Assembly (NCBI RefSeq): GCF_006540305.1
Contig: NZ_BJOR01000001.1
Span: forward strand, 7,502,001 to 7,566,000
Source of the DNA: Streptomyces sp. 6-11-2
GTDB lineage: Bacteria > Actinomycetota > Actinomycetes > Streptomycetales > Streptomycetaceae
Direction of reading: 5' to 3'
DNA: 64,000 nucleotides
The translations under genes were made by a program, and so were the position numbers. The notes beneath the pieces are model-generated. The model worked only from the letters and a program-made list of their open reading frames with translations, was not told the DNA's origin and did not search any database. Numbering within the stretch: the stretch's first letter is position 1; each line of letters opens with the position of its first letter. Positions 3,457 through 16,949 of this stretch are shown here, piece after piece.

Positions 3457-3637
3457 GAGAATGACGGAGTGACTACTCGCTCTTGAGGTGGCACGCGCCC
3501 GCTCAAGGTCGCACGCGCCCGCGTCGACCCCTTCCCGAGCCGAGCCATACAGAATTCTTTGCCGCCCCCTATCGGTTTCTGTATGGGAGTGGGAGGGGAA
3601 GTCCGGAGCAGGTTTCGCGGAGCGATGGGGAATTGAC

Positions 3638-3857
3638 GTGACCTGCATCACATGAGGGTTGGATCTCGCCTTGTTTCACTCTTCCATCGCGAACTGAAGC
3701 GGCTGGTCAGAGGCGCTCTTCGGATTGCATTGCGGTTTCCTGGAGCAACACCGGCCGACGCGCAGACGGCACATCAAGGCTTCTGGCACCTATTGCTCTG
3801 CGTCAAACGGTCATGCGAGTCTTCCCGGCAATTCGACGCCGCAGGCTGTTTCGGACC
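3638..3857 (+). promoter_or_regulatory. Leader region A, sharing five boxes with the hydroxylase leader
   Basis: This non-coding stretch upstream of the metallo-beta-lactamase-fold gene aligns with 15427-15647 (minus strand). Shared boxes are GTGACCTGCATCACATG (3638-3654), TCAGAGGC (3707-3714), GGCCGACGC (3753-3761), CTATTGC (3790-3796) and a core containing TCTTCCCGGCAATTCGACG within 3818-3838. Distances between boxes agree within about two bases. The first box has the CRP-like layout CGTGA-N6-TCACA. The core ends about 140 bases before the hydrolase start. It could be a shared promoter or a structured RNA leader. Confidence 0.6.
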
Positions 3858-3977
3858 CGGATCGCCGCTCGGCGAATGAGCGCTTCCGGCTACTGCAATC
3901 TCGCAACGCCCCTATTGCGCACTGTCCATGGCAGTGCACAACCTCAGCCAGCCCACTCCACACCAAGGCGGATGATC

Positions 3978-5123
3978 ATGTGCAACCTGTGCGGTCCTGA
4001 ATCTCCTGCCGATGCCGGAAGCGGGGTCGCTCGGCGCTCCGTGCTGACCGCCCTCGGTATCTCTCCGGTGGTCCTCAGCCTCCCCGGCGCGACAGCGGCG
4101 GCGGCGGAAACCCGTACCGAGCCCTCGGGCCGGGAGCCCGGCAAGAGCTCGCCGAGTGCGCTCGAACTGGTGCTGCTGGGCACCAAGGCGGGCCCTCCGA
4201 TCGACCCGCTGCGGGCTGGGATCTCCACCGCGCTCGTCGTCGACGGCGCGACGTACGTGATCGACTGCGGGCGCTCGGCCGCCACCCAGTACGTGCGGTC
4301 CGGCCTCACACTGGCGTCCCTGAGCGGTATTTTCATCACGCATCTCCACGCCGACCACGTCGCCGACTACTACAACTTCTTCCTGCTCGGGGGCAGCGTC
4401 CCCAACCAGGAGCACGACAACCTCACCCGCCCCGTCCCCGTCTACGGTCCCGGACCGGCCGGCGGGCTCCCGCCGAAGTTCGGTGGCGGACAGGCGCCGA
4501 CGGTCAACCCGGACAGCCCGACGCCGGGCCTGAAGGCACTGACCGACGACTGCCACGCGGCGTACGCCTACAGCACGAACGTCTTCCTGCGTGACATGGG
4601 TATCCAGGACATCCGGGCCCTTGCCGATGTGCACGAGATCGAGCTTCCGAGGGTCGGTGCCACGTACGAGAACACCGCGCCCGCGATGAAGCCGTTCGTC
4701 GTGATGGAGGACGACCGCGTCAAGGTCTCCGCGATCCTGGTGCCGCACGGACCGGTGTTCCCCTCCTTCGCGTTCCGCTTCGACACCGACCACGGCTCGG
4801 TCACGTTCTCCGGCGACACGACGTACAGCGACAATCTGATCGCCCTGGCCAAGGGCTCGGACGTGCTGGTCCACGAGGCGATCAGCGTCGAGGGGCTCGA
4901 CGCCCCGGCGGTCTTCGTGGACCACTTGCTGCAGTCCCACGTCGAGGTCCAGAAGGTCGGTCCGATCGCACAGCGGGCCGAGGTCGACATGCTCGTGCTC
5001 TCGCACATCTCCGAGGTCGCCCACAACCCGATCGACGCCCGGAAGTGGAAGAAGTGGGCACAGCGGGGGTACGGCGGCAAGGTGGTCGTCGGCGAGGACC
5101 TTCAGCGGATCAAGCTGGCCTGA
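3978..5123 (+). CDS. Tat-exported metallo-beta-lactamase-fold hydrolase
   Basis: The 381-residue product carries a twin-arginine signal (ARRSVLTALGISPVVLSL followed by ATAAAAE), so it is probably exported folded. The zinc signature HLHADHVADYYNF lies in the first half. Later ligand regions are VTFSGDTTYSDN, with its aspartate, and LVLSHISEVAHN, with its histidine. The overall pattern is RNase Z/arylsulfatase-like. AAGGCGG lies six bases before the ATG at 3978, so that start is preferred over the ATG at 3972. The substrate is unknown. Sharing of the upstream leader with the aromatic operon suggests it acts in the same pathway, for example on a lactone or ester, but this is inference. Confidence 0.85.
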   Translation: MCNLCGPESPADAGSGVARRSVLTALGISPVVLSLPGATAAAAETRTEPSGREPGKSSPSALELVLLGTKAGPPIDPLRAGISTALVVDGATYVIDCGRSAATQYVRSGLTLASLSGIFITHLHADHVADYYNFFLLGGSVPNQEHDNLTRPVPVYGPGPAGGLPPKFGGGQAPTVNPDSPTPGLKALTDDCHAAYAYSTNVFLRDMGIQDIRALADVHEIELPRVGATYENTAPAMKPFVVMEDDRVKVSAILVPHGPVFPSFAFRFDTDHGSVTFSGDTTYSDNLIALAKGSDVLVHEAISVEGLDAPAVFVDHLLQSHVEVQKVGPIAQRAEVDMLVLSHISEVAHNPIDARKWKKWAQRGYGGKVVVGEDLQRIKLA

Positions 5124-13768: not shown

Positions 13769-15334
13769 TCAGCCCTTGAGAATGCTGACGTCGTCGGGGT
13801 TGCGCAGGTCCGGAACCGTCCAGCCGTTCAGGTCGTACTCGTCCATGGCGCTCTGCGCGAATTCCTTGCAGTAGTCGAGCAGACCACTGCCCCGTGCGCC
13901 GAACAGGTTGGTCTGACGCGTCACGTCGTTGCTGCCGATGTAGTTGATCTCGTACAGCTCGTGACGGGCTCCGAACTCCGTACCGATGGAGTCCCAGAGC
14001 ATCTTCATGACCTTGACGCGCTCCTCGGCGTCGATGCCCCCGGTACCGCGCAGGTAGGTGTCCAGATAGCCCCGGATCTCCGCGGTCTTGAAGTCGTTGG
14101 CGTGGGAGTTGAGGTAGATCAGTCCACTGGCCACGACCTGCTCGATGATGTTCTTGATCTTCGGCATGGCCAGCTGGTTCATCACGCGGTAGGCGCCGGC
14201 GAACTGCGGGTCGGGCTGGATCATGCCGCCCTTCCACGGCACCGCGCTCTTCGCCATCGCGTCCGACAGCGCCCAGAAGGTGTTGCGCCAGGCGATGACC
14301 TCGCCGAGCTGGGACATGACGCCGTGGAACGAGCCGGCCCCGGTGACATCGAGGGCGCGCGACAGCATGCCGACGAGGAAGTCCATCTTGACGGCGAACC
14401 GGGTGCACCCGTGCAGGGAGGCGCGCTCCAGGTAGCCCGAGTGGATGTTGTACTTGTTCGCCTGTTCCAGGTCGTTGTGGATGAACGTGTTCTCCCAGGG
14501 GATGAACACGTTGTCGAGGACCAGGATCGCGTCGTTCTCGTCCAGTCGGCTCGACAGCGGGTAGTCGAACGGGCTGCCCAGCACCGAGGCCCGGTACTCG
14601 TTCGAGGTGCGGCAGAGCAGCTTCACGCCGGGAGCGTTGGTGGGCGTGATGAACACCGGGGAGAAGGCCGGGTCCTGCACGGCGACCTGGCCCACGTGAC
14701 CGACGAAGGTGTGGTGTGTCAGGGCGGACCCGGTGGCCACCACCTTGGCGCCGGTGACGTGGAAGCCCGCGTCGGTCTCCTTGGTGACCCGGATGAACAC
14801 GTCCTTGCCCGCGTCGGGACCGAGGCCGCGGTCCACCGGCGGGTTCATGATGGCGTGGTTGATGTACCAGGTTTTCTCCTGGGCCTTGCGGTACCAGTTG
14901 CGCGCGTTGTCCTCGAACCCCCGGTAGAACTCGGCGTTGGCGCCGAGCGTGCCGAGGAAACAGCCCTTGTAGTCGGGAGAGCGACCCATCCAGCCCCAGG
15001 TGATCCGCTGCCACTCGGCGATGGCGTCGCGGGAGGCCACCTGCTCCTCGACGCTCTTGGGCGCCTGGTAGAAGCGGTGGGTGAAACCTCCCCACTCCGT
15101 GGGCGCGGTGAGGATGTCCTTGCGCGCGGGGTCGTGCAGGGCGTCGTACATGCGAGCGATCATGCGAGCGGAGTTGCGGAAGGCGGGGTGTTCGGCGACA
15201 TTCTCCACCCGCTCCCCGTAGATCCAGACCTCGCGGCCGTCGTTGAGGCTTTCGAGATATTCATCTCCGGTAAAGGGGAGATGCTCACGGCCGGCAGGAC
15301 GCTGTGCCGACTGATTCGTGTTTCCCGTCGTCAT
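13769..15334 (-). CDS. HpaB-type flavin-dependent aromatic hydroxylase
   Basis: The 521-residue protein is full length for the 4-hydroxyphenylacetate 3-hydroxylase (HpaB/PvcC) family. Recognisable regions are ITWGWMGRSPDYKG, the flavin-binding TWYINHAIMNPPVDR, VLDNVFIPWENTFIH and the C-terminal GGIDAEERVKVMKMLWD. Members ortho-hydroxylate a phenol using FADH2 from a separate reductase; the candidate here is the product of 7302-7901. As first gene of the operon it would create the diol or aminophenol cleaved by the dioxygenase. The physiological substrate is not determined by the sequence. Confidence 0.9.
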   Translation of the reverse strand: MTTGNTNQSAQRPAGREHLPFTGDEYLESLNDGREVWIYGERVENVAEHPAFRNSARMIARMYDALHDPARKDILTAPTEWGGFTHRFYQAPKSVEEQVASRDAIAEWQRITWGWMGRSPDYKGCFLGTLGANAEFYRGFEDNARNWYRKAQEKTWYINHAIMNPPVDRGLGPDAGKDVFIRVTKETDAGFHVTGAKVVATGSALTHHTFVGHVGQVAVQDPAFSPVFITPTNAPGVKLLCRTSNEYRASVLGSPFDYPLSSRLDENDAILVLDNVFIPWENTFIHNDLEQANKYNIHSGYLERASLHGCTRFAVKMDFLVGMLSRALDVTGAGSFHGVMSQLGEVIAWRNTFWALSDAMAKSAVPWKGGMIQPDPQFAGAYRVMNQLAMPKIKNIIEQVVASGLIYLNSHANDFKTAEIRGYLDTYLRGTGGIDAEERVKVMKMLWDSIGTEFGARHELYEINYIGSNDVTRQTNLFGARGSGLLDYCKEFAQSAMDEYDLNGWTVPDLRNPDDVSILKG

Positions 15335-15426
15335 TGACCGGCCCCTTCTTGTCGTTCACGGAACCGGGCCGAGCCATCGGTTCGTGCAGTCAAGGCGCGG
15401 GCAGCAATCGCACGAGGTGTTTTCTC

Positions 15427-15647
15427 TCATCGATACGGCCCGCGCCGTCGAATTGCCGGGAAGACTGACACGGCCGCACGGCACGGGCAATAGAACGCGG
15501 AAGGGCCCAACGAGGCTCGAGTGCGTCGGCCACCGGCCTCCGGTCCGATCGGCACTCGAGCCAGAAACTGCCTCTGAGCAGGCATTTCAAGTGCTGGCAC
15601 GGGTTCCGTCGCAGGGCGGATACCGGCTCGCATGTGGTGCACGTCAC
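15427..15647 (-). promoter_or_regulatory. Leader region B of the aromatic operon, paired with leader A
   Basis: On the minus strand this region carries the boxes seen at 3638-3857. They are GTGACGTGCACCACATG (15631-15647, matching 15 of 17 bases), TCAGAGGC, GGCCGACGC, CTATTGC and an identical 21-base core at 15446-15466. The first box also forms the palindrome CATGTG-N8-CACATG on both strands, with the CRP-like layout TGTGA-N6-CCACA. Box 1 to core is 181 bases here and 180 in leader A. The core ends about 110 bases before the hydroxylase start. Confidence 0.6.
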
Positions 15648-15747
15648 ATGGATTCGGTGGTCGATCGCGGGGATGTGTTCTTGATTTCACCCTCCCTTTC
15701 CATATAGGGCGCAGCAGGGGGGTGCATAGTCCCGCGTATGGCTGCTC

Positions 15748-16653
15748 TCACCGTCCGAGCGCGCGGCGATGCTCGGCAACGGTCCGAGTGGCCTGGAGCC
15801 AGCGATCCATGAGCGGGGTAATCTCTCCTCCGCGCTTCCACAGCAGGGTCGCCTGCATGGACCGGAGCCATTCCGGGGGGTCGAGAAGCGCCACAGAATC
15901 ACTCGATCCGGCAATGCGCTCGGTCACGAGCGCGACACCCAGCCCGGCGGCAACGAAGGCTACTGCCGTCTGCGGCGTGGAAACCTCGATGACCTCGAAG
16001 GAGTCGTCGCCCGACAAGGCTTTCTCCGCGGCGTCCGGCATACCCCAGAACGCGGAAAGCCGGGACGGCAGGATCCACCGGCCCCAGCCCTTGCCGTCAG
16101 GACGGGATTCCATGGCGCGATACCTTGGCACAGCGAGCTTGACGTTGATGTCGATAATGGGGCACCAGTCACAGCCCTCGGCGACGAATCTGGCGAATTG
16201 CGTGGATCCGAACGGGACGCAGCCCATGTCCAGATCGCCGGACAGAACGCCCTGAACAATGAGGTCGGGAGTGACATCGGCCAGCGTGACGCGCGCCTTG
16301 GGGGCCTGATCGAGGAACTCCGCCAGTACGTCCGCGATGATTTCGTTGATGACCATGGGTTCCACACCGATGTGCAGATCGCCGATTGCGCCCCCTCCCA
16401 TCAATTTCAGCGTTTCCACGACTCGGTTCCGGTCCGCTATCAGACGTTCGCCCCTGGAGAGGAGGTGGAGGCCGGCCTGGGTGGGGTGCACGCCTTTCGC
16501 GGTTCGCTCGAGGAGGCTCACTCCGAGCTCGCGCTCCAGCTTCGCGATGGCGTGACTCAGCGGCGGCTGCGTCATGTGCAGATTCTTGGCGGCCTGTGAA
16601 ACCGAGCCGGCCTCGACGACGGCTTCGAAGTACTCGAGTTGGCGAAAATCCAT
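15748..16653 (-). CDS. LysR-family transcriptional regulator
   Basis: The 301-residue protein has an N-terminal winged helix (MDFRQLEYFEAVVEAGSVSQ, with MTQPPLSHAIAKLERELG as recognition region) and a C-terminal effector-binding domain. It lies on the same strand directly upstream of the aromatic operon and is the obvious candidate activator, probably responding to the substrate or a pathway intermediate. About 410 bases separate it from the hydroxylase gene, and leader B occupies most of that gap. Confidence 0.9.
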   Translation of the reverse strand: MDFRQLEYFEAVVEAGSVSQAAKNLHMTQPPLSHAIAKLERELGVSLLERTAKGVHPTQAGLHLLSRGERLIADRNRVVETLKLMGGGAIGDLHIGVEPMVINEIIADVLAEFLDQAPKARVTLADVTPDLIVQGVLSGDLDMGCVPFGSTQFARFVAEGCDWCPIIDINVKLAVPRYRAMESRPDGKGWGRWILPSRLSAFWGMPDAAEKALSGDDSFEVIEVSTPQTAVAFVAAGLGVALVTERIAGSSDSVALLDPPEWLRSMQATLLWKRGGEITPLMDRWLQATRTVAEHRRALGR

Positions 16654-16949
16654 GCCCTCTGAATGTCACGACTTCTGCGGAATGTCAACAGATGAGCAAC
16701 CGGCTTGGGGAAGGCAGTGGTCGTACGAAGTCGTGGGAGCGGCGCTCTTACGTTCAGGTCGCGTCCGGCCCGCTTCGGCGTGCCGCCGGCCGAAAACGGC
16801 CCGGGCCGGTCCGACCGCCGCCGTTATGGAACCCGCCGTGCCGTGAGCGCCACGGCGGGGGCGCGGGGCACCGTCGGCGTGTGTCGCGCGATGGGCGTTG
16901 AGCCACCGGAGGTTCTCATCGGTGACGAAGCGCTGTCGGGGGTCGCCCG
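16654..16949. other. Non-coding interval upstream of the LysR gene
   Basis: No convincing gene is visible here. Open frames on both strands lack family features and ribosome sites. The part next to 16653 must hold the LysR promoter. Confidence 0.4.

Follow-up and report, generated by a model that had tools for sequence, protein, structure and literature searches.

Do the short boxes shared by the upstream regions of two genes in one catabolic locus belong to an RNA leader or to promoter DNA? The question is raised by the window, a stretch of 64,000 nucleotides from Streptomyces sp. 6-11-2, in which one set of boxes lies upstream of a metallo-hydrolase gene and a second set between lysR and an hpaB-like operon. 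A preliminary description of this DNA had offered two readings, a structured RNA leader or an extended promoter complex; the promoter reading has held up and the RNA reading has not. The best explanation, which we hold with good confidence, is a multi-site promoter module in DNA, probably worked by a complex of a LysR-type regulator and Crp.

Genes of the locus

The first copy of the module is followed by the gene for an MBL-fold metallo-hydrolase (RNase Z-like superfamily; 3978..5123, plus strand, with an ATG at 3972 as another possible start). The second lies between the gene for a LysR-type regulator (15748..16653, minus strand) and the hpaB-like operon, which runs on the minus strand from 15334 down to 5226 and with which the hydrolase gene is convergent, starting from the operon's other end. 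The operon opens with the hpaB-like flavin monooxygenase gene (13769..15334, minus strand), followed by genes for an extradiol dioxygenase-like protein, an RraA-like aldolase, an aldehyde dehydrogenase, an NCS1 permease, a flavin reductase, an acyl-CoA-dehydrogenase-like monooxygenase and an FAA hydrolase; judging from these protein families, it resembles a set for 4-hydroxyphenylacetate breakdown. Upstream of the lysR start codon, at 35–36 bp, TTGACA occurs in six of 11 Streptomyces loci (the window at about 16654–16688 on the minus strand, L005, L006, L007, L009 and L039), so lysR may be transcribed with little or no leader.

Shared boxes in the two copies

All five boxes that had been reported as common to the hydrolase and aromatic-operon leaders are present where they had been placed: GTGACSTGCAYCACATG at 3638 (plus strand) and 15647 (minus strand), TCAGAGGC at 3707 and 15577, GGCCGACGC at 3753 and 15531, CTATTGC at 3790 and 15493, and an identical 21-base core, AGTCTTCCCGGCAATTCGACG, which starts at 3818 upstream of the hydrolase gene (3818..3838, plus strand) and at 15466 upstream of hpaB (15446..15466, minus strand). 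The reported agreement in box-to-box spacing was likewise borne out, with distances of 69/70, 46/46, 37/38 and 28/27 in the two copies. A 19-mer of the core has two matches in the window at up to three mismatches against 0.02 expected, and a search of all 8.7 Mb of the genome with this tolerance turned up two. Less weight can be put on the first box by itself (three matches at up to three mismatches against 0.8 expected).

The boxes differ in how far they extend to relatives, for which we counted exact matches anywhere in 523-base upstream regions of 14 elements, so that the counts are upper limits. TCAGAGGC was found in 8 of the 14 and CTATTGC in 7, and neither is general; GGCCGACGC, found in 2, is not conserved, and we rejected it as a real box and regard it as probably a chance match.

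The core can be read as V-F-P-A-I-R-R after GTG or ATG in several copies, and a coding or leader-peptide role was therefore considered. This reading was rejected on account of a one-base deletion in L010–L012 and a two-base insertion in L013 that break the frame, because of which the core looks conserved as DNA. The hydrolase reading frame could itself be extended upstream as far as an ATG at 3813, immediately ahead of the core (3813–5123, plus strand); the frame breaks in relatives argue against that ATG as the hydrolase start. A mobile or repeated element was also rejected: searches of plasmids and phages with the hydrolase copy (3580–3880) found no match, and the genome contains just two cores.

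Distribution in relatives

A search with HpaB yielded 53 loci (968 kb), of which 16 hpaB upstream regions were viewed closely (L005–L019 and L039) and the others were covered by automatic scans only. These include L005 from S. hirsutus, L009 from S. coelicoflavus, and more distant loci from Arthrobacter (L014), Leucobacter (L015), Rhodococcus (L016), Corynebacterium (L017), Enteractinococcus (L018) and Nocardioides (L019). The comparison of spacings leaves out L003, which is on the same contig as L005, the L007 hydrolase copy, whose locus ends, and L004 and L058–L061, which are copies from G092, G130, G136 and the window itself.

The preliminary description had allowed that no further copies might turn up near related genes, or that the matches might be a duplicated coding fragment. 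Further copies were found, and the indels of one or two bases in or beside the core of L010–L013 argue against a coding fragment. Every one of the 11 Streptomyces loci examined (the window, L005–L013 and L039) has the module before hpaB, and the core, at up to four mismatches, precedes hpaB in all ten of these fetched in addition to the window; at this threshold the Streptomyces core does not reach Arthrobacter, Rhodococcus or Nocardioides. Upstream of the hydrolase gene, the module is present in the window, L009 and L063, and at least the core precedes a metallo-hydrolase gene in four genomes; one is that of L007, where the locus ends 56 bp above the core, and another is G092, in which the module stands before both genes (L004 and L063). 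Hydrolase relatives of more than 80% identity were found only in the own genome and G092 among 392 genomes of the genus. The second hydrolase paralogue of G092 (L066, G092:C1:6141343-6142467, 84% identical) has no module in its 450 bp upstream, as judged by eye.

Searches beyond these loci do not support a general spread of the core. The core at one mismatch is found in 3 of 295 genomes of the genus, the own genome included, and a longer core pattern at three mismatches in 5 of 295, in one of which (G062, L062) neither gene lies within the 3 kb fetched. Seven HpaB relatives of 56–61% identity in a wider sample of 394 genomes lack the module. The literature matches listed hold no description of the element in their titles and abstract openings.

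The two window copies can be aligned in register over about 290 bp, as would be expected if the hydrolase promoter had recently been copied from the hpaB promoter and the likeness reflected descent and not function. We consider this highly unlikely, because spacer identity between the copies is only 0.37 while the boxes are intact, and because L007, L009 and G092 also carry a copy in front of each gene. Given these paired copies, the pair is probably old and selected. In L009 (8353-8642), where lysR and the hydrolase gene are divergent, the hydrolase promoter is a natural deletion variant, with about 115 bp missing from the stretch that separates Crp box and −35.

A CCATAY element and a Crp-type palindrome at fixed distance

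The shared region begins about 95 bp further upstream than had been described, at the CCATAC of 3545 and 15741, with a previously overlooked 42-bp element, CCATAY-N30/31-RTATGG, that is present in all 16 elements measured. This inverted repeat, which we propose as the operator of the LysR-type regulator, reads CCATAC-N30-GTATGG upstream of the hydrolase gene (3545..3586, plus strand) and CCATAC-N30-ATATGG upstream of the hpaB operon (15700..15741, minus strand), where it lies 6 bp after the lysR stop codon. Its second half, RTATGG, falls at +36 or +37 after CCATAY and is replaced by ATATAG, ATATAA or GTCTGG in single loci.

The first box, GTGACSTGCAYCACATG, is a Crp-type palindrome. The predicted Crp/GlxR-type sites of the window, CGTGACCTGCATCACA (3637..3652, plus strand) and TGTGACGTGCACCACA (15633..15648, minus strand), are centred 100 and 101 bp, respectively, from the start of CCATAC. 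All 16 elements, including those of Arthrobacter and Rhodococcus, keep this distance at 99–101 bp and carry GTG-N8-CAC, with zero to two mismatches to TGTGA-N6-TCACA. A looser scan that left some 16 bp of freedom found 13 places in the 53 loci (968 kb), all at 99–101 bp, 12 of them before hpaB and one before the hydrolase gene. In the own genome the composite pattern is confined to the two window sites. With a stricter Crp half, one that matches 11 of the 16 known boxes and only one of the two window copies, the pattern was found in none of 393 further genomes of the class.

Little similarity is left in the 46 bp before the Crp box, where the median pairwise identity is 0.35 (range 0.17–0.85) against 0.26 for shuffled sequences. 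Values for individual pairs were 0.26 for the window hpaB copy and Arthrobacter, 0.33 for the window hpaB copy and Rhodococcus, and 0.50 for Arthrobacter and Rhodococcus (shuffled pairs, 0.26 ± 0.07). In some distant loci only one of the two sites is present: Nocardioides has kept the CCATAY element and has no Crp palindrome at the 99–101 bp distance, and Enteractinococcus has a Crp-type palindrome and no CCATAY. CCATAY is also absent in Leucobacter and in Corynebacterium, whose sole Crp-like match (two mismatches) overlaps the predicted −10.

The bare pattern CCATAY-N30-32-TATRG occurs at four sites in the own genome, including the two in the window. A third, CCATAC-N30-ATATGG at G000:C1:2701655-2701696 (L088), lies near the start of a GntR/aminotransferase (MocR-like) gene, with a gene of the carboxymuconolactone decarboxylase family on its other side, and is probably the site of a different regulator.

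Middle box and inverted repeats

In all Streptomyces elements but two (12 of 14; the exceptions are L013 and the L009 hydrolase copy), 58–60 bp separate a middle box near TCAG from the Crp centre upstream of it; in Rhodococcus the distance is 50. The box is weakly dyadic around CTGGTCAGAGGC upstream of the hydrolase gene (3696..3719, plus strand) and partly palindromic in GAAATGCCTGCTCAGAGGCAGTTT upstream of hpaB (15565..15588, minus strand). As a full palindrome it was rejected, as dyad matches average 6.1 of 12 against a background of 5.1, a weak excess.

Downstream of the middle box in the hpaB copy lies a long inverted repeat, GGCTCGAGTGC...GCACTCGAGCC (15514..15562, minus strand), whose score was reached in 4 of 60 shuffles and which differs in relatives; it possibly marks where the lysR transcript ends. 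The GGCCGACGC zone of hpaB loci, between lysR and the −35, often carries such a GC-rich inverted repeat, unrelated in sequence from locus to locus, and in 6 of 19 regions the repeats score at this level or better (shuffles matching the score, of 60: none for L013, L039 and L014, two for L005, three for L007, four for the window hpaB copy), and those of L013, L039, L005, L007 and L014 lie within 95 bp upstream of the −35. The other 13 regions have no high-scoring inverted repeat, and in the window hydrolase copy all 60 shuffles matched the score. The repeats of L005, L013 and L039 are probably the end of the lysR transcript because they follow lysR, and lysR terminators or insulators are a possible role for those of all six regions.

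Promoter elements and the core

The last two boxes resemble a −35/−10 pair. Upstream of the hydrolase gene, a predicted −35, TTGCTC (3793..3798, plus strand), overlaps the CTATTGC box and is followed after a spacer of 18 by a predicted −10, GAGTCT (3817..3822, plus strand), which would place the start site near 3829–3830; upstream of hpaB, the corresponding TTGCCC (15485..15490, minus strand) and CAGTCT (15462..15467, minus strand) are separated by 17, with a predicted start near 15454. The core would thus comprise the −10, the probable start site and the first transcribed bases. As CTATTGC carries the predicted −35 and the core carries the predicted −10 and the probable start, the other boxes would lie upstream of the transcript.

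All Streptomyces elements except L039, where TTC replaces TTG, show the arrangement TTGNNN-N17/18-NAGYCT at these boxes (13 of 14). TTGNNN-N17/18-NANNNT, a pattern common by chance, was found by eye at the matching place in four of six distant loci (Arthrobacter, Leucobacter, Corynebacterium and Enteractinococcus); the fit fails in Rhodococcus (GTGCCC, spacer 15) and Nocardioides (spacer 14). The −35/−10 pairs were assigned from the alignment, with picking by eye in the six distant loci. A scan for promoters of the E. coli consensus found none in either region, which fits an activator-dependent promoter, yet also counts against the promoter reading.

In favor of the promoter reading are the Crp-type and CCATAY...RTATGG palindromes, the −35/−10-like pair, and conservation before the same two genes in other genomes.

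Evidence on an RNA leader

If the boxes were instead RNA motifs in a structured leader or riboswitch common to both transcripts, conserved islands at fixed spacing upstream of a gene would be expected, and such islands are present. No Rfam family matches the window at the gathering threshold. RNAalifold was run on 13 aligned relatives, with column shuffles as the control. In the upstream part only CCATAY/RTATGG and GTGA/TCAC pair (z −2.6, 3 of 100 shuffles as good; for the hpaB loci alone, z −1.9, 7 of 100), and neither the stretch between Crp box and core (z −0.6) nor the 5′ UTR (z +0.7) has a consensus fold above chance.

Folds of single sequences are uneven. For the span first described, one copy folds no better than shuffles (z 1.17) and the other modestly better (z −1.94, 8 of 200 shuffles as good). 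With a z of −3.15 and a long CGACGGCGCGGGC/GCCCGCGCC stem, the predicted fold of the window hpaB 5′ UTR (15335–15454, minus strand) is unusually stable; this counts in favor of an RNA leader, but none of the ten other Streptomyces hpaB loci shares it (z −1.3 to +0.2), and the window hydrolase UTR has a z of −0.55. The upstream regions of L005, L013 and L039 also fold better than shuffles (z −3.4 to −4.4, in a comparison that left out the L009 hydrolase row), but they share no structure; in each, the GC-rich inverted repeat noted above, its sequence unrelated to the others, lies a short way before the −35. In addition, the L009 hydrolase copy dispenses with about 115 bp of the middle, and the best prediction of the start site leaves four of the five boxes upstream of it. 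We therefore judge an RNA leader to be very unlikely, and a promoter module in DNA remains the preferred reading.

Candidate binding proteins

In all 11 Streptomyces loci, and likewise in those of Arthrobacter, Leucobacter, Rhodococcus and Nocardioides, lysR is the gene immediately before hpaB; in Enteractinococcus a lysR relative lies elsewhere in the locus. Where the LysR wing reads RTAKGV, CCATAY is found upstream of hpaB (14 of 14 loci), and it is absent in both loci with another wing (Leucobacter and Enteractinococcus), an association that is confounded with relatedness. CCATAY is most likely bound by the adjacent LysR-type regulator, an assignment that agrees with the wing association, although the association does not prove binding. 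The T-N11-A dyad is a criterion for LysR-type operators; here CCATA-N8-TATGG gives T-N10-A, by eye and in some loci only.

For the palindrome, the candidate binder is L077, a protein of 247 aa with cNMP_binding and HTH_Crp_2 domains that is the one strong Crp-type protein of the own genome (HTH_Crp_2, 67.9 bits, with the next matches at about 32 or less) and that falls, at 101 bits, below the NCBIfam CRP cut-off of 266. Its best eight matches to solved Crp/Fnr-family regulators have E values of 9e-77 to 1.5e-86, and 6 of the genome's 26 matches to HTH_Crp_2 exceed the Pfam cut-off. The palindrome fits the motifs GTG(N)8CAC and GTG(N)6GNCAC given for Streptomyces Crp and Corynebacterium GlxR in an excerpt of PMC10033298.

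Distance from the promoter and helical phase

The upstream sites lie far from the predicted start. CCATAY of the window copies is about 245–285 bp upstream of it, and in the 12 long elements with a value CCATAY starts 275–300 bp upstream of the end of AGTCTT (164 bp in the L009 hydrolase copy). Counted from the predicted start, 13 of the 14 Streptomyces elements have their Crp centre between about −180 and −205, and the L009 hydrolase copy has it at about −70.5. An excerpt of PMC6301791 describes class I Crp sites as centred at −61.5, with action periodic at 10.5 bp; the 13 elements do not occupy this position or nearby helical steps and their Crp sites are probably too distant for class I direct contact, and the L009 hydrolase site is not far from it.

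LysR-type proteins at aromatic genes usually bind at −80 to −35 according to an excerpt of PMC4486848, a range outside which the CCATAY element falls. This placement favors an alternative in which Crp and LysR act separately, Crp serving as a distant bender or in control of lysR, LysR binding at the middle box or core, and CCATAY belonging to another protein. The near-constant position of the middle box after the Crp centre and the core, which is the most conserved block of the module and may hide an operator, also favor it. However, CCATAY and the LysR orthologue both reach Arthrobacter, Rhodococcus and Nocardioides while the Streptomyces core does not, and the 99–101 bp lock suggests that the CCATAY and Crp sites work as a pair. 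Separate action is thus rather unlikely, though less so than an RNA leader, and we retain the joint LysR–Crp complex.

The distance from the Crp centre to the −10 end is 174–181 in the 11 of 14 Streptomyces elements without large indels. The other three are L006 (189), L005 (198) and the L009 hydrolase copy (64, because its middle ~115 bp are missing); the distant loci give 199 (Arthrobacter), 187 (Rhodococcus) and 271 (Enteractinococcus). Expressed as offsets from 178.5 in turns of 10.5 bp, these are +1.0 for L006, +1.9 for L005, −10.9 for the L009 hydrolase copy, +2.0 for Arthrobacter, +0.8 for Rhodococcus and +8.8 for Enteractinococcus. Agreement with near-whole turns was compared with random phases (P = 0.007 for all six, 0.02 for the three Streptomyces elements and 0.005 for the four without Rhodococcus and Enteractinococcus; Rayleigh P = 0.02 for all six), in a post hoc test with few, possibly non-independent events and a reference of 178.5 chosen by us. 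Because the test was picked after the data had been seen, we take the closeness of these indels to whole helical turns as suggestive.

Proposed mechanism and comparison with known systems

We propose that the module has four parts: the LysR-type regulator encoded by the adjacent gene would bind the 42-bp CCATAY-N30/31-RTATGG element; Crp would bind the palindrome centred 99–101 bp from the CCATAY start; the middle box near TCAG would be a third part; and a weak −35/−10 pair (e.g., TTGCCC-N17/18-CAGTCT), with the −10, start and first transcribed bases in the core, would be the fourth. LysR carrying an aromatic inducer would join cAMP-bound Crp in a rigid, bent complex that, by looping, would touch RNA polymerase across about 180 bp of DNA and activate transcription. 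The hpaB operon and the convergent hydrolase gene would then be co-induced when an aromatic substrate is present and preferred carbon is absent. A more specific version, in which LysR and Crp at an invariant 100 bp form a phase-locked, enhancer-like unit at a sigma-70-type promoter, active from about 70 to 200 bp away on the same helix face and shifted by near-whole turns, is a tentative suggestion.

In E. coli, the malK-malE control region carries arrays of MalT and CRP sites that act as one complex over 200–300 bp. The predicted sites here similarly combine those of a specific regulator with that of Crp over such a length, but the specific regulator is of another family, there is one Crp site, and there is no divergent promoter pair. 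Crp/GlxR-controlled actinobacterial promoters share the palindrome motif and the Crp-type protein encoded in the genome, and differ in that the site is near −61.5 in place of the remote position found here. As at the LysR-type aromatic promoters of BenM, CatR and NahR covered in the excerpt of PMC4486848, a LysR-type gene lies beside an aromatic operon with a candidate inverted-repeat operator, and the regulator is divergent from a target, here the hydrolase gene in L009; in contrast to them, the element is far upstream of the predicted start and paired with a Crp site at 100 bp, and the regulator is in tandem with hpaB and not divergent from it. Riboswitches and Rfam leader families have conserved islands upstream of a gene in common with the module, which differs from them in having no Rfam match, no common fold and boxes upstream of the predicted start.

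The shared region is real and is best read as a promoter module common to two convergent transcription units of one catabolic locus. Its parts are of known kinds, and a rigid CCATAY–Crp unit that would act from far upstream is unusual. L005, L006 and L009 offer natural variants for tests of helical phasing. If the proposed mechanism is true, a LysR-type regulator and Crp can form one long-range assembly on a weak promoter, a departure from the usual promoter-near placement of LysR-type and Crp sites, and the two-site unit has kept its rigid 100-bp spacing in Streptomyces, Arthrobacter and Rhodococcus while the intervening DNA drifted. The predicted regulon would then consist of the aromatic operon and one metallo-hydrolase.
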